Positions 42,184 through 53,965 of a DNA stretch of 64,000 bases are shown here, piece after piece (position 1 is the first letter of the stretch; each line of letters opens with the position of its first letter). A program made the translations under genes and the position numbers. The stretch lies in assembly GCA_938035525.1 (NCBI GenBank), contig CALHOI010000013.1, positions 1 through 64,000 of the forward strand, given 5' to 3'. The stretch comes from an uncultured Granulosicoccaceae bacterium (GTDB lineage Bacteria; Pseudomonadota; Gammaproteobacteria; Granulosicoccales; Granulosicoccaceae). The notes under the pieces were generated by a model. It was not told the DNA's origin and ran no database searches. It saw only the letters and a list, made by a program, of their open reading frames with translations.

Positions 42184-45100
42184 ATGTCATTTCGAATCTT
42201 CTCCACAAAGAATCGCCCAGTGCACCTGGGACCATACCCCCTGGAACGACTGGCGCGTTCTGCCGATTTGGATTTGTCTGATACACCTTGTCTTAAGCCA
42301 TTAAGCTTTCATCGACCTGAACAACCTCAGTCCATTGTCAATGCCATGGGAGAATTTCAGGCGATGATGGATGCAATACGCGACGGACTGGTCAACAAGA
42401 CTCCATCGACCATTCCCGCTTGTCAGCAAGAACGCGCTAATCATTTAAAAGCGTTTGGGTATTTTTCAGATGCTTCTATGGTTGGCATTACGCGTATCCC
42501 TAAGACTGCGCGACTCGATACGCAATTACGAAATCCCGACATAGACCGCTTGTCTGAAGAACTGAAAACCCGGCAGACCAAAACATTGGCTTCTGGCATT
42601 GACGTTATTATGGCGAACCTCAAAGAGGCAATGGAAGCGCCGCCTGCCAGTGCTAATCATCACACTCATGCCATTGTTTTTTTAGTTGAACACCTGCGCG
42701 ATCCCTCACCATTAGAGCCAGGGAGCGAATGGATACTGAACGCACAAGATCATCGTGCTTGCTTAAGGGCATCAGAGATAGCGGTTGTTTTAGCAAACTA
42801 CATCCGTATATTGGGATTTGATGCGCTCGCTCATACACCAACCAGCACAGATATCGATCTTAACCAGCTTAGTGTGGCAGCTGGGCTGAGCTGGTTAAGC
42901 AATGGAGAATTGCAAGCACCTTGGTTAGGCAGAAAATTTGGCGTTGCAGCAATAACGACAACACTTGAAATGGCAACCGATAAACCGCTTTGTGCCAGGC
43001 AACCCTGGTTTAGCACCAAAGGGCCTGCCTGGTGGATGGGAAACGGCTTTGAAAAAAATGCGTTTAATCGCGATGCTTATGCCAGGCGAAACTATGTTGA
43101 CGGTGCACACCCGTTTGAAACATTGAATCGCCAGGAAGTTCCTACAACTTATATCGATGAAGCCAATGTAGCGCGCGTTCCTAAGCGTGCAGATATGTTT
43201 GCACGTTCTCAGTTTGGCGATATGGGAAAGTCAATTCAACAAGGAGCCACTGGAGGCCATTATGTGCGTAAGTCGGCAACGGCTTCGGCGCAACGAACCA
43301 TGTTAGGCGCGTTTGTACTGTTGCAAGACGGCGATTCGGCTAATGGCGCGAAGCCAACGGATGCACTAATCAATGCGGCCAATATTAAAGCGGCCTCTTA
43401 TTTTCTTGGCGTTGATGCTGTTGGGCTAAGTCGGTGTCCAGAATGGACATGGTACTCACATGACGCGGTAGGGGAGCCTATTGATCCACCGCACAATCAG
43501 GCGGTGAGCATGATCATAGATCAAGGCTATGAAACCATGGAAGGTGCCAGCGGTGATGATTGGATATCTGTTGCGCAATCTATGCGGGCTTATTTGCGTT
43601 TTTCGTTGATCGGCGGTGTTATCGCCAAGCACATACGTAACCTTGGATACAAAGCTAAAGCGCATTCCGTTATGGATGGCGAAGTTCTGCAGCCTCCGCT
43701 ATTGCTGTTGTCTGGCCTGGGAGAGGTCTCGCGCATTGGCGAAGTCATACTTAATCCGTTTTTAGGGCCGCGATTAAAATCGGGCGTGGTGACTACTGAT
43801 ATGCCAATATCACACGACAAACCGATTAACTTTGGCCTGCAGAAATTTTGCGAACAATGTAATAAGTGTGCGCGTGAGTGTCCGTCGGGTGCCATTACAG
43901 CTGGCCCAAAGTTAATGTTTAATGGCTACGAAATATGGAAGTCCGATAGCCAGCGTTGCGCTAACTATCGAATCACCACTGAAGGTGGCGCAATGTGTGG
44001 ACGTTGCATGAAAACCTGCCCCTGGAATCTGGAAGGGCTGTTTGCTGAACGCCCGTTTAGATGGGCTGCCATGCGAATGCCTAGTGCGGCTCCAACGCTG
44101 GCAAAATTAGATGACCTTGTTGGTAATGGTGGTCTTAATGAAGTAAAAAAATGGTGGTGGGACATTGGTCTTAAAGAAGACGGTGCCTATCATCCGGTTG
44201 AAGCTCCCGTTAACCGGCGCGATTTACAAAGAGAGCTAAAACTAAAATACGAAGATCAAACCCTGGCAGTGTATCCCGCGCCCTTAGCCCCGCATCCCTA
44301 TCCCTTTCCTTTTCCTATTGACAGGGAAGCCGGTATTGAAGCGTATCAAGCGATGGTAACCGCCGAACAGTACCAGGCAAAGCTGGCAAATGGTGAGCGA
44401 GATCACCTGCATATTTACACTAATGACGGCACGTCCCCAGTAATCAGAGTTCAAGTTTCTAAAGTGGAGGCCATGTCGGATAGCGTAACCAAATATGAAT
44501 TTAAGTCCCTGGATGGCGCCGAGCTGCCGCCGTGGACGGCTGGGGCGCATTTGGATATTGTGGTTGCACCCGAGTACTTACGACAGTATTCCATGTCCGG
44601 CAACCCAAACGATAAATCGGTTTATCAAATTGGTGTGTTACGTGAAGATCAAGGGCGTGGTGGCTCCAGGTTGATGCACCGGATATTTACCCTTAATAGA
44701 AAAGTCTTTATTTCCAAACCGATCAATCATTTTAAGTTAGACGCCAGTGCGTCAAAAACATTTCTTATGGGCGGTGGAATTGGTGTGACCCCAATGATAG
44801 CGTTCGCGCATAGCCTGTACGCAGAGGGTAAAGACTTTGAATTACATTATTCGGCACCGCAGAAAAACAGTGCCGCTTTCATGAATGACTTAGCGCAATT
44901 CCCCTGGGCATCGCATGTTAGCTATTACTTCTCAGATCAGAGCAATCGCGCCAACTTTGATGCCATTCTGGCAGGTTATAAAGCAGGGTGGCACGTGTAT
45001 TCCTGTGGTCCTGATCGTTACATGAGCGCCGTAACGGAGGCCGCACAGCGACAACAATTTCCAGACAATGCCAGACACCTTGAATACTTTAATGTGCCAG

Positions 45101-45387
45101 AATTACCCGATTACGTTAATCATGATTTCCGGTTAAAGCTTAAGAAATCAGGCAAGGAATTTTTAGTGCCTGCAGATAAGAGCGCCACTGATGTGCTGCT
45201 GGAAAATGGTATTCATGTAGACGTAAAGTGTTCTGATGGGCTTTGCGGTGTGTGCCAGTGTGGGCTGGTAACCGGCGAGGTTGAACATCGTGATTTTGTT
45301 TTATCGAAGCAGCAGCAGCAAAGCACCGTTATTCTTTGTCAGTCCCGTGCGCTTAAGGCAGATGGCCTTATAGAAGTAGACCTTTGA
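42184..45387 (+). CDS. Self-sufficient catabolic reductive dehalogenase: RdhA fused to a flavin reductase and plant-type [2Fe-2S] ferredoxin domain
   Basis: Two cobalamin/RdhA-like regions, 2x[4Fe-4S] motifs CEQCNKCARECPSGAI and CGRCMKTCPWN, ferredoxin-reductase-like GGGIGVTPMIAFAH, C-terminal CSDGLCGVCQCGLVTGEVEHRDFVL...CQS. No Tat signal. Confidence 0.85.
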   Translation: MSFRIFSTKNRPVHLGPYPLERLARSADLDLSDTPCLKPLSFHRPEQPQSIVNAMGEFQAMMDAIRDGLVNKTPSTIPACQQERANHLKAFGYFSDASMVGITRIPKTARLDTQLRNPDIDRLSEELKTRQTKTLASGIDVIMANLKEAMEAPPASANHHTHAIVFLVEHLRDPSPLEPGSEWILNAQDHRACLRASEIAVVLANYIRILGFDALAHTPTSTDIDLNQLSVAAGLSWLSNGELQAPWLGRKFGVAAITTTLEMATDKPLCARQPWFSTKGPAWWMGNGFEKNAFNRDAYARRNYVDGAHPFETLNRQEVPTTYIDEANVARVPKRADMFARSQFGDMGKSIQQGATGGHYVRKSATASAQRTMLGAFVLLQDGDSANGAKPTDALINAANIKAASYFLGVDAVGLSRCPEWTWYSHDAVGEPIDPPHNQAVSMIIDQGYETMEGASGDDWISVAQSMRAYLRFSLIGGVIAKHIRNLGYKAKAHSVMDGEVLQPPLLLLSGLGEVSRIGEVILNPFLGPRLKSGVVTTDMPISHDKPINFGLQKFCEQCNKCARECPSGAITAGPKLMFNGYEIWKSDSQRCANYRITTEGGAMCGRCMKTCPWNLEGLFAERPFRWAAMRMPSAAPTLAKLDDLVGNGGLNEVKKWWWDIGLKEDGAYHPVEAPVNRRDLQRELKLKYEDQTLAVYPAPLAPHPYPFPFPIDREAGIEAYQAMVTAEQYQAKLANGERDHLHIYTNDGTSPVIRVQVSKVEAMSDSVTKYEFKSLDGAELPPWTAGAHLDIVVAPEYLRQYSMSGNPNDKSVYQIGVLREDQGRGGSRLMHRIFTLNRKVFISKPINHFKLDASASKTFLMGGGIGVTPMIAFAHSLYAEGKDFELHYSAPQKNSAAFMNDLAQFPWASHVSYYFSDQSNRANFDAILAGYKAGWHVYSCGPDRYMSAVTEAAQRQQFPDNARHLEYFNVPELPDYVNHDFRLKLKKSGKEFLVPADKSATDVLLENGIHVDVKCSDGLCGVCQCGLVTGEVEHRDFVLSKQQQQSTVILCQSRALKADGLIEVDL

Positions 45388-46229: not shown

Positions 46230-48725
46230 ATGAAAATGAATGAGCTGCCTTCACATGCTTCGGTTGTCGTTGTGGGTGGTGGCATCATGGGCTGTTCAAC
46301 ACTTTATCACTTGGCCCGTATGGGCGTTAGCGATGCCATCCTACTTGAGCGAAACAAGATCACATCGGGTACCACCTGGCACTCTGCGGCTCAGGTGCGC
46401 GCCTTAAGAAATTCCAAAAACCTCACCCGCATGATCCAATACTCGGTTGAGCTATACAGCCAGCTGGAAAAAGAAACCGGACAATCGGTTGGCTGGATTC
46501 AGGAAGGCTCTTTATCGTTAGCAACAAACCCCGATCGCCTTATTCACATAAAAAGACAAGAGGCTTTGGCGCGCGCCTATGGTATTGATGCAAAGTCCAT
46601 CTCCAGCGCTGAGGCTTGTGAGCGTTGGCCGCTGATGAATGGTGACGATGTGCTTGGCGCTGTGTGGTCACCAGACGATGGGCGAGTTTCACCAAGCGAC
46701 GTTTGTGCAGCGCTGGTTAAAGCGGCCAAAAATGCTGGGGTGACATTGTTTGAAAATACAGGCGTTACTGGTGTGACCACTCGCAACGGCCGGGTATACA
46801 GTGTTGAAACAACGCAAGGTTCGGTTCGCTGCGATGCCATTGCCTTGTGTGCGGGGCTTTGGTCCAGGGAAATAGGTGCTATGGCTGGAGCTGAAGTACC
46901 CGCTCTTGCTTGTGAGCATTTCTATTTATTGACCAGACCCATATCAGGTATCACCGGCAATACACCGACTTTGTCAGATCACGATAACAGCCTTTATATC
47001 CGGGATGATTCTGGCGGGTTGTTGGTTGGTTGTTTTGAGCCCATGGGCAAGCCCATTAAACCTGGCGTTCTAGACAGTCATTTTGAATTTGGCCTACTGC
47101 CTGAAGATTGGGACCATTTTCAACCGATGATGGAACGTGCACTGCACCGACTTCCCGTTTTGGAACACGCTGAAGTCAAAATGCTGCTAAACGGCCCAGA
47201 GAGCTTTACCCCGGATGGTACGTTTATGTTGGGTGAGACAGCTGAAACGCAAGGGCTATTTTTAGGCTGTGGAATGAACTCTGTTGGTCTGGCTTCAGGA
47301 GGAGGTGCCGGGATGAACTTGGCTCATTGCATCGTGCATGGCGCTCCTGCATACGACTTAAGCGAGGCCGATGCGAAGCGATTTGCGCCAGTATTCAACT
47401 CAATAGACCACTTGATGGCGCGCGCACCAGAAATTTTGGGCACACACTACGATATTGCCTACCCTGCAAAGCAGCTAAAAACGGCAAGGAATATAAAACG
47501 ATTGCCATTGCATGATCAGCACATGAACGATCGGGCTTTTACAGGTCAGTTTTTCGGCTGGGAGCGACCGCTGTATTTTAATGCCTGCGCTAAACCTGAT
47601 CTTACGTTTGGAAAGCCAACCTGGTTTGACAACGTGAAAGCCGAGGTCATGGCAGCACATCAAAGTGCTGCTGTATTTGATTTATCTTCGTTTGGAAAAA
47701 TTGATGTCACCGGAACCGATGCACAGGCCTTTATGATGCAGGTCTGTGCTGGTTTTGTTGATCGTGCTCCGGGCTCGGTGGTTTACACGGCAGTTTTAAA
47801 CCATAACGGTACCTATGAAAGCGATATAACCGTGTGGCGTTTAGGTCAAAATCATTACCGATTAATTGTTGGTACCACGGCAATAAAGAAAGACATGGCT
47901 TGGTTTAGTCGTGCAGCTCAGGGCTTGGCAGCTGATGGAAAAGGAACGCGCTATAACGTAGTGGTCAGTGATGTTTGCGAAAACAGTGCGGTATTGGCGT
48001 TGATGGGCCCAGAGGCAACCACCATAGCTGCCTCATTGGGGGCCGAGCTAGATGATCTTGGCTACTTTAAGCACACGACTGCTACCTTTGCCGGCATAAA
48101 AGTGACAGCTGCCAGGATGTCTTATGTGGGTGAAGCGGGATGGGAAATTGCCTGTAAATCGAGTGACGTTAATGCGCTGTACCAAGCGTTGAGACATGCC
48201 GGTGCAACACCTGCCGGGCTATTCGCACAAACATCCATGCGTATAGAAAAAGGCTTTCGAGCCATGGGGCACGAACTGGACTCTGATGTATCACCGGTTG
48301 ATGTTGGCTTAAGTGCGTTTACCCGACCGGCTGGCGGTTTCACAGGATATGATGAGATGCAAAAACGCATTAGCACCGGCCCAACACAGCAGGTTGTGTC
48401 GTTGACTTTCGACGATCAATCGCTCGTCCCTCTGGGGCATGAGCCGGTTATTGTTAATGATCGTATTGTAGGCAAAACAACGTCGTGCGCATTCGGTTAT
48501 CGCGTGGGCAAACCGGTGGCGTTGGCACAAGTATCAACCGAGCTTTTATTACCTGACTTATCATCTGAGAAGCTGTCATCTGAAAAGCTATTATCTGAAA
48601 AGTTATCATCAGGCCGGTTATCAGCGGCTAACGTGGAAGTGGATATCGCGGGCGAATTAGCATCCGCAACCGTGAGTATGTCACCACTTTACGACGCAGA
48701 CGGTCTTCGAATGAAGCGCCTGTAA
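46230..48725 (+). CDS. FAD-dependent oxidoreductase-GcvT fusion (dimethylglycine/sarcosine dehydrogenase-like)
   Basis: ASVVVVGGGIMGCSTLYHLARMGVSDAILLERNKITSGTTWHSAAQVR; C-terminal GcvT part ALMGPEATTIAASLG, SYVGEAGWEIAC, KGFRAMGHELDSDVSPVDVGL. Confidence 0.9.
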   Translation: MKMNELPSHASVVVVGGGIMGCSTLYHLARMGVSDAILLERNKITSGTTWHSAAQVRALRNSKNLTRMIQYSVELYSQLEKETGQSVGWIQEGSLSLATNPDRLIHIKRQEALARAYGIDAKSISSAEACERWPLMNGDDVLGAVWSPDDGRVSPSDVCAALVKAAKNAGVTLFENTGVTGVTTRNGRVYSVETTQGSVRCDAIALCAGLWSREIGAMAGAEVPALACEHFYLLTRPISGITGNTPTLSDHDNSLYIRDDSGGLLVGCFEPMGKPIKPGVLDSHFEFGLLPEDWDHFQPMMERALHRLPVLEHAEVKMLLNGPESFTPDGTFMLGETAETQGLFLGCGMNSVGLASGGGAGMNLAHCIVHGAPAYDLSEADAKRFAPVFNSIDHLMARAPEILGTHYDIAYPAKQLKTARNIKRLPLHDQHMNDRAFTGQFFGWERPLYFNACAKPDLTFGKPTWFDNVKAEVMAAHQSAAVFDLSSFGKIDVTGTDAQAFMMQVCAGFVDRAPGSVVYTAVLNHNGTYESDITVWRLGQNHYRLIVGTTAIKKDMAWFSRAAQGLAADGKGTRYNVVVSDVCENSAVLALMGPEATTIAASLGAELDDLGYFKHTTATFAGIKVTAARMSYVGEAGWEIACKSSDVNALYQALRHAGATPAGLFAQTSMRIEKGFRAMGHELDSDVSPVDVGLSAFTRPAGGFTGYDEMQKRISTGPTQQVVSLTFDDQSLVPLGHEPVIVNDRIVGKTTSCAFGYRVGKPVALAQVSTELLLPDLSSEKLSSEKLLSEKLSSGRLSAANVEVDIAGELASATVSMSPLYDADGLRMKRL
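48561..48620 (+). repeat. 15-bp (5-codon) in-frame tandem repeat inside the FAD-GcvT fusion gene
   Basis: tcatctgagaagctg / tcatctgaaaagcta / ttatctgaaaagtta / tcatcaggccggtta = SSEKL-SSEKL-LSEKL-SSGRL. Confidence 0.9.
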
Positions 48726-48778: not shown

Positions 48779-49273
48779 TTAAGCGCTCGTTTCAGTGGCC
48801 AATTTTGTGGCCGTGACAATAACACCGTCAGTGTCGGCATAAACGTAGTCGCCAGGGTTAAAAACTGCATCGCCAAAAGACAGGCTTTGGTTTCGTGTTC
48901 CCTGGGTAACTGGAATGTATTTTCTAGAGCATGTGCCCAGCGCGTACAGCGCTACAGGAATGTCCTTTATCTGTAGAGTGTCCCTGATATACCCGTTCAC
49001 AATGATGCCCACATACCCATTGGCCTGCGCGAACTTCATCAGGTTTTCACCGACAATGGCGTAGTACGCTCTTCTAGCGTCCACGACGACGACTTTGCCA
49101 TCGCCTTGCTCGTCCCGCAGAAGAGTGATGAGGTCTGCATTGTTGCGGTCCAGCTCAATGGTGACGACCTCGCCCTGACACATCGATGCGCCACCAAAGT
49201 TGGCGTACCCAGGGCCCAGCACTGTCACGGAATCGGGATGGTTGTCAGCTAAATCTGCGGTGAAGTCGACCAT
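48779..49273 (-). CDS. RraA-like family protein (RraA / HMG aldolase fold)
   Basis: DSVTVLGPGYANFGGASMCQGEVVTIELDRNNADLITLLRDEQGDGKVVVVDARRAYYAIVGENLMKFAQANGYVGIIVNGYIRDTLQIKDIPVALYALGTCSRKYIPV; start MVDFTADL at 49273. Confidence 0.8.
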   Translation of the reverse strand: MVDFTADLADNHPDSVTVLGPGYANFGGASMCQGEVVTIELDRNNADLITLLRDEQGDGKVVVVDARRAYYAIVGENLMKFAQANGYVGIIVNGYIRDTLQIKDIPVALYALGTCSRKYIPVTQGTRNQSLSFGDAVFNPGDYVYADTDGVIVTATKLATETSA

Positions 49274-49399
49274 TATTTGTTCCTTGCTCCCGTTGTGCGT
49301 CCAAAAGACCTTGCCGTGAGCCATGAAGATACCATTATCTGGGTGTCTGGAAGCATAGGGTTTGATAAAATACCCAGCATATTCGAAGGCTCACCAACC

Positions 49400-49825
49400 A
49401 TGAAAGTCGTCACTGGCGTCATAGGCAACGATATCCACGTCGTTGCCAACAGGCTTATGGACTTATCGCTCAATGCGAGGGGCTATGAGGTATTCAATTT
49501 AGGTGTAAACACCCATCTGGAAGAGTTCTTTGATGCCGCCGTTGAAACCGGTGCAGACATTCTTCTGATTTCGTCGCTCAATGGCGAAGCAGAAGGCTGG
49601 GGCAGGGAAGTTAAAATCCACAAGGCCAAATACAAGAGCCTTGACGGACTGACCATGATGATTGGTGGCAATTTGACGGTGGGTAGCGGGAACGCGGACG
49701 ACATAGTGCCGCGATTTAAAAATTACGGTTTCGACCTTGTGTGTCACCAAATTGATCTCAATACAGGTCTGGATATGCTTGAAGCCCATTTGCAAGAGAA
49801 ATTGCAGGAAGAATCGCAGGCATGA
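49400..49825 (+). CDS. glmS-like: Glutamate (methylaspartate) mutase small B12-binding subunit (GlmS/MutS/MamA-like)
   Basis: MKVVTGVIGNDIHVVANRLMDLSLNARGYEVFNLGVN (DxHxx[A]), ILLISSLNGEAEGWG (SxL), MMIGGNLTVG (GG). Confidence 0.88.
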   Translation: MKVVTGVIGNDIHVVANRLMDLSLNARGYEVFNLGVNTHLEEFFDAAVETGADILLISSLNGEAEGWGREVKIHKAKYKSLDGLTMMIGGNLTVGSGNADDIVPRFKNYGFDLVCHQIDLNTGLDMLEAHLQEKLQEESQA

Positions 49826-51186
49826 GTCAGTTACAAGAAGAAAGAGAAATCATACTCGGTAACGAAAACGTTGACTCATTCGATTTTGACGAGGTCCGTG
49901 AATTTGTTAAAGGGGCAGATGAGCAACTGTTTATCTCTCATCATTTCGACACCAAAGATAAAATGCTGGTACAACCTCGCGGCGGTTTTCCTACCTACGA
50001 AAAACAGTTTGCCTTGTATGAATTTTTTGTAGATGCCAACGTTGATGTATTGCCACTGACAATTGACTCTAATACGCGGCTTAATGACTACACCACCGCC
50101 AAAAAAATGCTGCGCCTAAGTGAAGCAAACGAAATCGATATGTTGAATGGGTACCCGTTGGTTAATCATGGGTATCGCAGTACCCGGAAAATGATGACCC
50201 ACTTTAACCACCCTGTGAGCTTGCGTCACGGCACGCCTGATGCGCGCCTGCTAATTGAAATCGCAATTGCTTCGGGTATTTTTGAAATTGAAGGTGGTCC
50301 CATAACCTACTTGTTGCCTTATTCAAAAAACTTTCCGTTAGACAAGGCTTTTTTGTACTGGAAGTACGTTGAGCGTGTTTGTGCCGATTACTCTACGCTT
50401 AATAAGCCGATTAACCGAGAATCATTTGGGCCGCTAACCGCGACTCTGGTGCCACCTTCTATCACGATTGTTATTCAGCTTCTAGAGATGCTGCTATCAC
50501 TGGAAGAGGGCGTCAAATCATTCTCCGTGTCGTTTGCGCAGCAAGGCTCTATGATTCAAGACATCGTCACAGGCAAAGTCACGCGAGCACTTGCCAAACA
50601 CTATGCGGCCCAAATCGGTTGTGAAGATGCGGCTATTCATCTTGTATACCATCAATGGATGGGGGCGTTCCCAACCAATCGCGATTCTGCCGATCAACTG
50701 ATTAACATGTCGACCGTGATTGCTTCCATGGTTGGCGCTGATAAAATCATCACAAAAACGCGGGAAGAGGCGGTAGGTATACCCACCAAAGAAGCAAACG
50801 CTCAAACCGTTGCCAATACTCAATACACGCTAAACATATTGGGTGGGCTGCCAGCTATTGTGGATGAGCAAGAAGAAGAAATCTTAACGGCCGAGGTGCA
50901 CGCCATTATGGAAGCTGTGTTTAACGACCCGGCTGATACGTTGTGGCGAAAAGTGTTTAACTCAATAAAGAGTGGTGTTATAGATGTGCCGTTTTCACCG
51001 CATATAATAAACCACAACGAAATGATCACTATTCGAGACGCTCAGAAGAATATTCGTATTATCAAGCGTGGCAATGTTCCCATACCCGATCGCTGTTTCG
51101 AATATGAAAAGTCATGTTGTGATCTAAACAAAGATACCACCAGCATAGTAAACGACATTATCCAAGATATTGGAATCATGCAGTGA
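49822..51186 (+). CDS. glmE-like: Glutamate (methylaspartate) mutase large catalytic subunit (GlmE/MutE/MamB-like)
   Basis: VQPRGGFPTYEKQ, LTIDSNTRLNDY, SLRHGTPDARLLIEIA, FEIEGGPITYLLPYSKNFPLDKAFLYWKY; ATGA overlap with the upstream gene. Confidence 0.9.
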   Translation: MSQLQEEREIILGNENVDSFDFDEVREFVKGADEQLFISHHFDTKDKMLVQPRGGFPTYEKQFALYEFFVDANVDVLPLTIDSNTRLNDYTTAKKMLRLSEANEIDMLNGYPLVNHGYRSTRKMMTHFNHPVSLRHGTPDARLLIEIAIASGIFEIEGGPITYLLPYSKNFPLDKAFLYWKYVERVCADYSTLNKPINRESFGPLTATLVPPSITIVIQLLEMLLSLEEGVKSFSVSFAQQGSMIQDIVTGKVTRALAKHYAAQIGCEDAAIHLVYHQWMGAFPTNRDSADQLINMSTVIASMVGADKIITKTREEAVGIPTKEANAQTVANTQYTLNILGGLPAIVDEQEEEILTAEVHAIMEAVFNDPADTLWRKVFNSIKSGVIDVPFSPHIINHNEMITIRDAQKNIRIIKRGNVPIPDRCFEYEKSCCDLNKDTTSIVNDIIQDIGIMQ

Positions 51187-52403
51187 GCGGCTCATCAGAA
51201 ACAAATTCAGCAAACGACAAGTTGCTTATTGATATTGGTAGTACCTACTTTAAAGTCAGTACCTCCGGTTCTATCGAGCAACATTTTCGAGATTTTAATA
51301 AGCGAATACTCGACGACTTGCTTCATAAAAGTGGCGAAACCGTACAGCGGTTTAATGCAAAGGATATACATATTTGCTCTTCTGCCAATGGCGGATTAAG
51401 TACTTTGATCATTGGGCTCACGCAGTCCTATTCTTTAAAATACGCCACTAACATCGCTTACAATTCAGGAATCAATGTTATTGATTCCTTGATATTTCAA
51501 AATATTGAAGACTACTCGATTCCAAGCGATCTGATAGACGTTGTCATTATCGTTGGTGGTATTGATTCCAACAGTGGCTTGTTTGATGACCGGCTCAACC
51601 AATATCTTGCCAAGCTGAACTACTCAAATGCTGTTTATGTTGGAAATGCTCAAGATGGAGCGAAAATGGCGTCTACAGTCAAGCGCTTGGTGGTTTTGCC
51701 TAATATTATTGATGATCGTTTGCACATAGTAGAAAAGCATTTAAAAGATTATCTGACCAATCTTTATCAGCAAGACATCGAAGGTAAGGAAGATATCAAG
51801 CACCTGTACGAGATCACCGATAATCAAATATTCTCAACCCCATTTGTTGTCAATAAATCTCTGCCGCTGATTAATGCATCTTTTTCTGTGACCGATCCTT
51901 TTATTCTGTTAGACATTGGTGGCGCGACAACAGATGTTCACTATTCCAAAGACTTGGTAACCGACAACATCGTTACCGAGCAGGGCCATGATCGTATTGT
52001 GTTTAAAAAGTTAGGGGTTTATAAATCCAGACAATCCCTGATTTTTACCGCTGAACAAAACGAATACGCCTATGAATTATTGATGCACTTAAAAGTGACG
52101 GAAAATATCTACGAAGAGCACAGCGATAAAGCCACTAAAATATTGATGCAACTGGCTATTTTTCTGGTGTTATGCAAAATGTCTCACTACAGGCCGGCTT
52201 ATGTCACTTTGAAGCTATTGGCAATGAATTCCATTGTGTTTACCGGCGGTATAACAAAGGTGCTCAATACTGAAGACGTAGAAGATGTTGTCGCCTTTTT
52301 CTATCGAAAAATTCTTAATTCCGATCATAAGCCGCGAACGGTATTGGATACAAATTACGACATCTGGACACTGGGTGCCAAGGACCATGCAATATGTCAA
52401 TAA
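51183..52403 (+). CDS. glmL-like: MutL/GlmL family protein (glutamate mutase-associated ASKHA-type protein)
   Basis: KLLIDIGSTYFKVSTSG, ICSSANGGLSTLIIGLT, VIIVGGIDSNSG, FILLDIGGATTDVHYSKD, VFTGGITKVL; GTGA overlap with glmE-like. Confidence 0.85.
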   Translation: MSGSSETNSANDKLLIDIGSTYFKVSTSGSIEQHFRDFNKRILDDLLHKSGETVQRFNAKDIHICSSANGGLSTLIIGLTQSYSLKYATNIAYNSGINVIDSLIFQNIEDYSIPSDLIDVVIIVGGIDSNSGLFDDRLNQYLAKLNYSNAVYVGNAQDGAKMASTVKRLVVLPNIIDDRLHIVEKHLKDYLTNLYQQDIEGKEDIKHLYEITDNQIFSTPFVVNKSLPLINASFSVTDPFILLDIGGATTDVHYSKDLVTDNIVTEQGHDRIVFKKLGVYKSRQSLIFTAEQNEYAYELLMHLKVTENIYEEHSDKATKILMQLAIFLVLCKMSHYRPAYVTLKLLAMNSIVFTGGITKVLNTEDVEDVVAFFYRKILNSDHKPRTVLDTNYDIWTLGAKDHAICQ

Positions 52404-53965
52404 ACTGTATTCGAACGCTACTTGAATCTGCCGCGCAGTCTCATCCCGATAAAGTTGCAATCAAGTTTGAAGAAAAGCAACTAACCTACTCAGAATTACT
52501 TTCGCGTGTTAATCAGGTTGCCTTATATCTTCAGGAGCTTGATTTCCCTAAAGGAACGCGTGTCGGGTTGTATGCCAAAAAGGATGTACCGCAAGTCATT
52601 GCTATTTTAGCTATTTTGTCCACTGACTATATATTGGTGCCACTGACTCGATTACTTAAAGCGGAGCAGGTACAGTACATTATCGATGATTGTGGTATTC
52701 AGTGTGTAATAACCGATAAGCTAAAGCTTGAAAGCATCGAAGAAATTGATTTTGATGGCCATATCGTTTCTATAGAAACGACCGGCAAAGATATTCCCTC
52801 TTTTGAAGAGATATTTAAGTACTACAACAAGCCTTATCATTGCGAAATCAATGGTCACGACAACGCCGTTATCACGTACTCGTTCGGTTTAACCGGAACG
52901 CCTAAAGGCATTGTTATTTCGCATCGTAACTTAATCGATTCTGCCCGTGTTGTTTCTGAATACCTTGATTTAAATGAAAATGACGTTATCTCTGGTTTGT
53001 TGTTGTTTAATTTGGACTATGGACTCAATCAGATTTTCTGCGCGTTGTTAAATAACGCAACGCTGGCATTGCACCGCTTTATTTTGCCTGGTGATTTTTT
53101 TAATCACCTTATAAATGATGAAGTCACCGTTCTGCCACTGATGCCGGTGAACATATCGCAGATATTTGACGAAGACTTATACGTGCCACCCAGTGTGGAA
53201 TTATTTGATAAGGTCCGAATCATTACATCCTCGGGTGGCAATGTGACGCAAAGAATGATCGAGGATTGTGCCAATACATTTCGACACTGCCAGTTTTACT
53301 CCATGCATGGACTTACCGAGGCATTTCGTTCTACCTATCTAGATCCATCACAAATCAGAATACGCCCCGATTCTATTGGTAAGGCCATCCCCGATGTGGA
53401 GCTTTATGTCATTGATGAAGACGGAAACGAGTGTGAGCCTCGCGCTGTGGGCGAACTGATTCACAGAGGTGGCTATATTTATCGAGGTTTCTGGAATGCT
53501 CCAAAAGAAACCTCAGAGCGATTTAAATCTGTTCAAATACTCAAAAATGTCCTCGATTTGCAAGGGCAACTTGTTGATGAGATTGTCGTTGCTACCGGGG
53601 ATTACGTGTACAAAGATGAGGAAGGCTACTTGTACTTTGTTTCTCGACGCGACGACATGATCAAAACCAGTGGTTTTAGGGTGTCACCTTATGAGGTGGA
53701 GTCTGTGGTTGAGAAAAATTTACCGCAGATACAACAGTGTGCTGTTTTTGGAATCGATAATCCAAAGATAGAGGAAGAGATCGTCATGGTGTATTCAGCA
53801 CCTGGGAAAATTTCAGAAAAAGAAATTACTTTCGAGCTTAAAAAACACCTTGCCTCCTATATGGTGCCAAGCCGAATTGTTTATCGTAAATCGCTACCCA
53901 TGGTACAGAGCGATCGGAACCAGATAAACAAGGACGAGCTAAAGCGCGAAATAATCGGTGACTAG
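52394..53965 (+). CDS. AMP-dependent acyl-CoA ligase/synthetase, resembling exosortase-associated ligases
   Basis: TYSFGLTGTPKGIVISHRNL (A3), SMHGLTEAFRSTYLDPSQIRIRPDSIGKAIPDVELYVIDEDGNECEPRAVGELIHRGGYIYRGFWNAPKETSERF, VATGDYVYKDEEGYLYFVSRRDDMIKTSGFRVSPYEVE. 10-nt overlap with the upstream gene. Confidence 0.88.
   Translation: MSINCIRTLLESAAQSHPDKVAIKFEEKQLTYSELLSRVNQVALYLQELDFPKGTRVGLYAKKDVPQVIAILAILSTDYILVPLTRLLKAEQVQYIIDDCGIQCVITDKLKLESIEEIDFDGHIVSIETTGKDIPSFEEIFKYYNKPYHCEINGHDNAVITYSFGLTGTPKGIVISHRNLIDSARVVSEYLDLNENDVISGLLLFNLDYGLNQIFCALLNNATLALHRFILPGDFFNHLINDEVTVLPLMPVNISQIFDEDLYVPPSVELFDKVRIITSSGGNVTQRMIEDCANTFRHCQFYSMHGLTEAFRSTYLDPSQIRIRPDSIGKAIPDVELYVIDEDGNECEPRAVGELIHRGGYIYRGFWNAPKETSERFKSVQILKNVLDLQGQLVDEIVVATGDYVYKDEEGYLYFVSRRDDMIKTSGFRVSPYEVESVVEKNLPQIQQCAVFGIDNPKIEEEIVMVYSAPGKISEKEITFELKKHLASYMVPSRIVYRKSLPMVQSDRNQINKDELKREIIGD

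Follow-up and report, generated by a model that had tools for sequence, protein, structure and literature searches.

A conserved glutamate mutase module with an rraA-like gene and a non-canonical ligase-family protein in an uncultured Granulosicoccaceae bacterium: a possible undescribed B12-dependent pathway

The stretch of DNA analysed in this work (the window) comprised the first 64,000 nucleotides of contig CALHOI010000013.1, from the assembly of an uncultured Granulosicoccaceae bacterium (GCA_938035525.1; 3.6 Mb, 88% complete). Between positions 49400 and 53965 it carried four overlapping genes, encoding both subunits of a putative glutamate mutase, a MutL-like protein and a protein of the AMP-ligase (ANL) family, with a divergent rraA-like gene upstream. 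Glutamate mutase belongs to textbook B12 chemistry and has few known uses: fermentation, the haloarchaeal acetate cycle and the production of antibiotic building blocks. The genes and promoter elements of the locus were as follows:

48779-49273, minus strand: rraA-like gene (RraA/HMG-aldolase family, PF03737), divergent from the others, assigned by family match and by linkage in relatives
49326-49334, minus strand: extended -10-like element of the putative rraA promoter (AAGATACCA on the plus strand; relaxed match)
49362-49371, plus strand: extended -10-like element of the putative glmS promoter (TTGATAAAAT), 36 nucleotides from its divergent partner
49400-49825, plus strand: glmS-like gene, B12-binding small subunit of glutamate mutase, assigned from the open reading frame list and family matches
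49822-51186, plus strand: glmE-like gene, catalytic subunit of glutamate mutase, assigned by family match and conserved residues
51183-52403, plus strand: mutL/glmL-like gene with a GTG start, probable mutase-reactivating chaperone, assigned by PF13941 and adjacency to glmE
52394-53965, plus strand: gene for an AMP-ligase-family (ANL) protein, sister to TIGR03098, with a non-canonical ATP loop and without the A10 lysine

The start of rraA was probably at 49273; the promoter element overlaps, or lies too near to, an alternative ATG at 49324.

Conservation and spread of the locus

GlmE relatives were sought in a single genome from each of 85,462 species; 226 stretches matched and the best 80 were fetched, so that the conservation figures given below describe the near family, in which many assemblies are draft or metagenome-derived. 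The sequence-only reading of the window had proposed a translationally coupled glutamate mutase operon with gene overlaps of 4, 4 and 10 nucleotides. The open reading frame coordinates gave exactly these values (glmS/glmE, glmE/mutL and mutL/ligase, respectively), and the overlaps recurred in relatives, with 4 or 1 nucleotides for glmS/glmE in 76 of 80 loci and 4 nucleotides for glmE/mutL in 69 of the 80 fetched. The coupled operon was also borne out by gene adjacency: mutL was found directly 3' of glmE in all 74 testable loci, and the ligase gene, which that reading counted as a member, followed mutL in all 72. The unit was, however, larger than the four genes first recognised. The rraA gene was divergent and within 1.5 kb in 60 of 73 testable loci (63 of 73 when located anywhere in the flank), and clustering of all the neighbouring genes revealed one further gene that recurs with the module, present in 33 of 80 loci and encoding an aspartate/aromatic-type aminotransferase (NF006719, 573 bits). 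With these two additional genes, the likely chemistry differs from that of a four-gene unit.

The aminotransferase linked to the module was not present in the window, and the source genome encoded only a 44% homologue, elsewhere in the genome. In three loci (L042, L051 and L063) the gene had moved some kb away and was still near the module, which argues for a functional tie. It was also separate from the housekeeping enzyme, to which it was 49% identical in genome G008.

The closest relatives of the window locus were from Granulosicoccaceae. Other carriers were found in the Gammaproteobacteria (Colwelliaceae, Oceanospirillaceae, Halieaceae, Alteromonadaceae, Vibrionaceae and others), the Betaproteobacteria and the Campylobacterota (Sulfurimonas, Arcobacter); cultured carriers include Colwellia echini, Neptuniibacter caesariensis and Amphritea balenae. 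The presence of the module was sporadic: among 369 genomes of the class only 5 had a GlmE relative, which was missing from two congeneric genomes and from one of the same family. GlmE identity between Campylobacterota and Pseudomonadota reached 95%, and the betaproteobacterial copies nested with Oceanospirillaceae in the tree; we read both as gene transfer, that is, as a module that was probably spread horizontally. No copy was found among the PLSDB plasmids, where the best GlmE was approximately 40% identical. Distances between the module genes were correlated (0.47-0.79, exceeding all 500 permutations), as is expected of genes that evolve together. Comparison of the window with its nearest relatives showed saturation at synonymous sites and a difference of only about 4-6% in the GlmE protein; the ratio of nonsynonymous to synonymous substitution rates (dN/dS) was approximately 0.02-0.16 in the closest pairs for the genes tested. 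The module genes are under strong purifying selection.

Two peculiarities of the sample were noted. One locus labelled Rhodothermales (L014, JABDKO010000004.1) carried a GlmE that fell within Granulosicoccaceae in the tree, and is probably a mis-binned contig. Two contigs of a single Aliarcobacter metagenome-assembled genome (STC_124; L057 and L060) carried modules with identical GlmE, which points to a duplication or to a mixed bin.

Mutase core, RraA clade and shared promoter region

GlmS matched the B12-binding domain and the methylaspartate mutase S family NF002612, with a score over the cut-off. GlmE was a strong match to Met_asp_mut_E (PF06368, 395 bits) and scored 375.7 bits against the NCBIfam equivalog TIGR01503, slightly under its cut-off of 390.1. 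The MutL protein exceeded the Pfam cut-off for PF13941 (90.8 bits) and missed that of the GlmL equivalog by far. GlmE lying just under, and MutL far under, the equivalog cut-offs indicate that the module is a divergent branch of the known glutamate mutase systems.

GlmE could be aligned over positions 45-430 to the solved enzyme of Clostridium cochlearium. The eight catalytic or substrate-binding residues (R66, R100, R149, E171, Y177, Y181, K326 and E330 in C. cochlearium numbering) were kept in 81 of 81 sequences. In the cobalamin motif of GlmS (DxHxxG), D11 and the cobalamin-ligand H13 were invariant (80 of 80) and the Gly was replaced by Ala, also in 80 of 80. A PduO-type cobalamin adenosyltransferase was encoded in the source genome. 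Since all eight GlmE residues were intact, GlmS and GlmE very likely form a functional adenosylcobalamin-dependent glutamate mutase, with the MutL/GlmL-type protein as its probable reactivator. In four Campylobacterota genomes with the module (G018, G023, G026 and G027), the cobalamin adenosyltransferase families PF02572 and PF01923 were unmatched, though the mutase needs adenosylcobalamin.

The RraA-like protein retained an acidic residue and an Arg-Asp pair (E93-x20-R114-D115) in 65 of 65 sequences. HMG/CHA aldolase, a related enzyme which requires this Arg and Asp, decarboxylates oxaloacetate (PMC5065237). The module proteins share PF03737 and the invariant Arg-Asp active-site pair with the RraA/HMG-CHA aldolase family, but form a separate clade linked to glutamate mutase, with the motif E-x20-RDxxQ. 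Most of the module copies were 60-80% identical to the RraA of the window, whereas genome G010 also encodes another RraA, which was about 30% identical. The gene was displaced by no more than 6 kb in three loci (L007, L009 and L073), and in genome G007 it was located approximately 12 kb from the ligase gene on the same contig.

The intergenic region between rraA and glmS contained two facing extended -10-like boxes (patterns A[AT][AT]NTANCA and TTGNTA) in 44 of 57 regions, against 0.24 expected from shuffled sequences; this expectation should be taken as indicative and not as a strict test, because the motif was spotted by eye in the same sequences in which it was later counted. Box spacing was 34-37 nucleotides in 41 of the 44 matching loci, and the pair was seen across families and in both phyla (e.g. 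L024, Sulfurimonas; L030, Oceanospirillaceae; L049, Halieaceae). The window kept this arrangement, with an rraA-side box deviating from the strict pattern. This conserved divergent promoter pair ties rraA to glmS, so that the gene and the shared promoter region are both part of the module, a membership that gene overlaps alone could not reveal. Riboswitch control was rejected, as no Rfam family was found in the 46-56 kb region of the window, and a defence system was rejected in the absence of any PADLOC match.

The ligase-family protein

The product of the fourth gene matched the AMP-binding and AMP-binding_C domains. Its best NCBIfam match was TIGR03098, the exosortase-A-associated ligase (438 bits, under the cut-off of 592), and it was 32-36% identical to true TIGR03098 proteins. 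Both have the motifs DYGLxQ and GLTEAFRS, the amino-binding Asp and a conserved Arg. True members, in contrast, have the loop YTSGSTG and the A10 motif NGK, and adjoin a decarboxylase and a carrier protein, neither of which accompanies the module. Among 13 module genomes, TIGR03099 exceeded its cut-off in a single one, and there on a different contig from the module.

The structure predicted with AlphaFold showed a complete ANL fold (predicted local distance difference test score, pLDDT, of 82.7), the ATP loop (165-167) being its least confident part. The model matched many ANL/adenylating enzymes of the PDB with template modelling (TM) scores of about 0.8. The PDB hits of the protein also included entries 3wvn and 3wv4, structures of the vicenistatin enzyme VinN. 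Asp208, Glu309, Arg312, Asp403 and Arg429 were invariant in the 72 ligase sequences. Asp208 occupies the position of the amino-group-binding (A4) Asp of amino-acid-activating enzymes. The ATP loop read S-F-G-[LMIV]-[TS]-G in all 72 sequences, and none matched the classical A3 signature [STG][STAG]G[ST][STEI][SG], which was matched by three TIGR03098-type proteins (L093, L094 and L114). The A10 lysine was Arg in the window copy and Arg, Gln or Glu in 12 of 12 Granulosicoccaceae relatives, and was retained in most of the copies from other families, among them Colwellia and Campylobacterota homologues.

With the ATP-loop signature lost in all the sequences and the A10 lysine lost in the family of the window, ordinary ATP-dependent ligation is doubtful. 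Judging from the retained residues, the protein probably still binds an amino acid and a nucleotide; efficient ATP-dependent adenylation seems doubtful, above all in Granulosicoccaceae. These same losses leave unsupported, as it stands, the suggestion of the sequence-only reading that methylaspartate or a derivative may be the substrate of the ligase.

The proven precedent for such an activity is the vicenistatin starter-unit set (VinH/VinI/VinN/VinO/VinL), in which a glutamate mutase (VinH/VinI) is paired with a stand-alone ANL amino-acid-activating enzyme, VinN (PMC11284099). By analogy, the ligase of the module might adenylate 3-methylaspartate or glutamate and load it onto a carrier protein or another acceptor, leading to a peptide, an amide or a beta-amino-acid unit. 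The invariance of Asp208 and Arg312 fits this role; both residues are, however, also found in TIGR03098 and hence are not substrate-specific, and VinN was only one among many ANL relatives with a score similar to that of the module ligase. The altered ATP loop and the missing A10 lysine argue against adenylation. The module also lacks the VinO-type decarboxylase, the carrier protein and the polyketide synthase of the vicenistatin set, and neighbour clustering revealed no conserved carrier protein, nonribosomal peptide synthetase or pyridoxal phosphate-dependent decarboxylase nearby, whereas TIGR03098 loci have both a carrier and a decarboxylase. A vicenistatin-like function is thus unlikely.

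Slightly less unlikely, though still doubtful, is that the ligase-family protein is a pseudo-enzyme that works alongside MutL and serves the mutase as chaperone, sensor or adaptor. Its gene overlaps or closely adjoins mutL in 72 of 72 loci, and the changes in the ATP loop and A10 coexist with retention of the fold and of Glu309, Asp403 and Arg429. Nevertheless, most of the members outside Granulosicoccaceae keep the A10 lysine, a pure scaffold would not require the invariant pocket residues Asp208 and Arg312, and known glutamate mutases work without such a partner.

Proposed route and comparison with known uses of glutamate mutase

The downstream enzymes of the known pathways were not conserved with the module. 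Methylaspartase, whose absence from the window the sequence-only reading had pointed out, was not found genome-wide either: PF07476 had no match in the source genome (a weak observation alone, given 88% completeness), and across 30 module genomes none of its matches was convincing. Five of the 29 other genomes gave scores over the cut-off, all of them short partial matches of the enolase-superfamily type (28-41 bits). The methylaspartate operons (glmS-glmL-glmE-mal-CoA transferase-CoA lyase) have homologous GlmS, GlmE and GlmL/MutL proteins, GlmE being about 37-40% identical, and the mutase reaction would be identical. In the plasmid operons of Gemmobacter and Ensifer, mal, a coenzyme A (CoA)-transferase, a CoA lyase and a fumarase-type hydratase lie beside glmS/glmE, but neighbour clustering found none of these genes conserved next to the module, which lacks methylaspartase, CoA-transferase, CoA lyase and mesaconase and has ligase and rraA genes instead. 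Conventional methylaspartate fermentation, or the methylaspartate cycle, with a distantly encoded methylaspartase was rejected since no convincing methylaspartase was found in the 30 module genomes, and is extremely improbable. The module resembles the known glutamate mutase pathways and the vicenistatin set and yet belongs to neither, because methylaspartase, carrier protein and decarboxylase are absent and the ligase departs from the classical ATP-loop signature.

We tentatively propose, at somewhat less than even odds for the scheme as a whole, a route from glutamate to 2-oxobutyrate with a non-canonical ligase-like member. GlmS and GlmE, with MutL as reactivator, would convert glutamate to (2S,3S)-3-methylaspartate, as the conserved residues support; the step would be biosynthetic rather than fermentative. 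Transamination would then yield 3-methyl-oxaloacetate, as the linked aminotransferase suggests; this step would be performed by the dedicated enzyme where the module has one, and by a housekeeping one elsewhere, including the genome of the window. Finally, the RraA-like lyase may decarboxylate 3-methyl-oxaloacetate to 2-oxobutyrate, which can feed isoleucine synthesis; the E-x20-R-D residues kept in all the sequences and the HMG/CHA aldolase precedent point to this last reaction. The ligase-family protein, an obligate though non-canonical member, would bind the amino acid or an adenylate; instead of conventional ATP-dependent ligation, its part would be the channelling, transfer or gating of the C5 intermediate.

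The same chemistry, from glutamate through methylaspartate to 2-oxobutyrate, appears as a glutamate mutase route to 2-ketobutyrate among nine routes listed in PMC7476758, and no gene set assigned to that route was found in the papers searched. The open-licence papers searched contained no description of the module, nor of glutamate mutase with RraA or in these taxa. Neither of the two refuting conditions set in the sequence-only reading (a conventional methylaspartase/mesaconase set elsewhere in the genome, or a ligase gene not conserved beside the mutase in relatives) came true, and that interpretation was partly supported.

Several observations weigh against the route to 2-oxobutyrate. Threonine deaminase (IlvA) was over the cut-off in 23 of 30 module genomes, the source genome included, which makes a second 2-oxobutyrate route unneeded for isoleucine and is a difference from the listed isoleucine route; rescue of genomes lacking IlvA was unsupported for the same reason. 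No aminotransferase was found near the module in most of the Granulosicoccaceae, Campylobacterota and Betaproteobacteria, and adjacent rraA was lacking in the Aliarcobacter loci. RraA proteins can be non-enzymatic, and the module clade has an invariant Gln at a position that is Glu/Asp in one RraA metal motif. The ligase, for its part, has no necessary place in this route, and neither a carrier protein nor a partner decarboxylase was found with it.

Alternatively, 3-methylaspartate might have a different destination, such as an exported metabolite, a signalling compound or one of the cell surface, and RraA would then be an aldolase or a regulator without enzymatic activity. The versatile function of the RraA family is compatible with this, and the sporadic distribution and the cross-phylum identity of GlmE resemble those of accessory transferable traits. 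No transporter, tailoring or polymer gene was conserved beside the module, however, and the aminotransferase and RraA genes suit a simple keto-acid route; such a product is therefore quite unlikely, more so than a vicenistatin-like one.

Two other glutamate-mutase-like clusters were detected. One, on a plasmid of Methylobacter sp. YRD-M1 (NZ_CP091425.1; L112:4898-10258), encoded an asparagine synthetase A-like protein, a B12-binding protein, a 505-amino-acid protein without Pfam match, a GlmE-like protein (33% identical to that of the window) and an EamA transporter, which suggests a methylasparagine-type product. The other (L092:1201-4063, gammaproteobacterial genome G043) was a divergent GlmE-GlmS-GlmL set, with a GlmE 27% identical to that of the window, adjoining a protein that by eye was MmgE/PrpD-like. 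In the window, on the plus strand, 46230-48725 encoded a flavin adenine dinucleotide (FAD)-dependent oxidoreductase plus GcvT-type protein, dimethylglycine dehydrogenase-like, with a C-terminal short imperfect repeat (SSEKLSSEKLLSEKLSSGRL), and 42184-45387 a 1067-amino-acid fusion with 4Fe-4S and C-terminal 2Fe-2S domains, which by eye resembled a reductive-dehalogenase-type (B12) enzyme of the self-sufficient kind, although it matched no Pfam domain of that sort.

That the operon is a co-regulated metabolic module is well supported, and its product would be the one proposed above. A set kept across distant water-living bacteria without the known follow-up enzymes is probably an undescribed biosynthetic route. 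In its full form, a B12-dependent pathway in which glutamate mutase, a lyase of the RraA family and a ligase-family protein with an altered ATP loop (perhaps outside the usual adenylate-forming chemistry) convert glutamate to a new or unexpected product, spread by transfer among Gammaproteobacteria, Betaproteobacteria and Campylobacterota, the proposal is possible but falls short of probable. A conserved co-regulated module of cultured marine bacteria and Campylobacterota, with the known downstream enzymes missing, points to another use of glutamate mutase. If the route to 2-oxobutyrate is true, the module would provide genes for a route from glutamate to isoleucine that has been on record since 1962. 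The ligase-family protein is well suited as a test case for what becomes of an adenylating-enzyme fold after the loss of its standard ATP loop.

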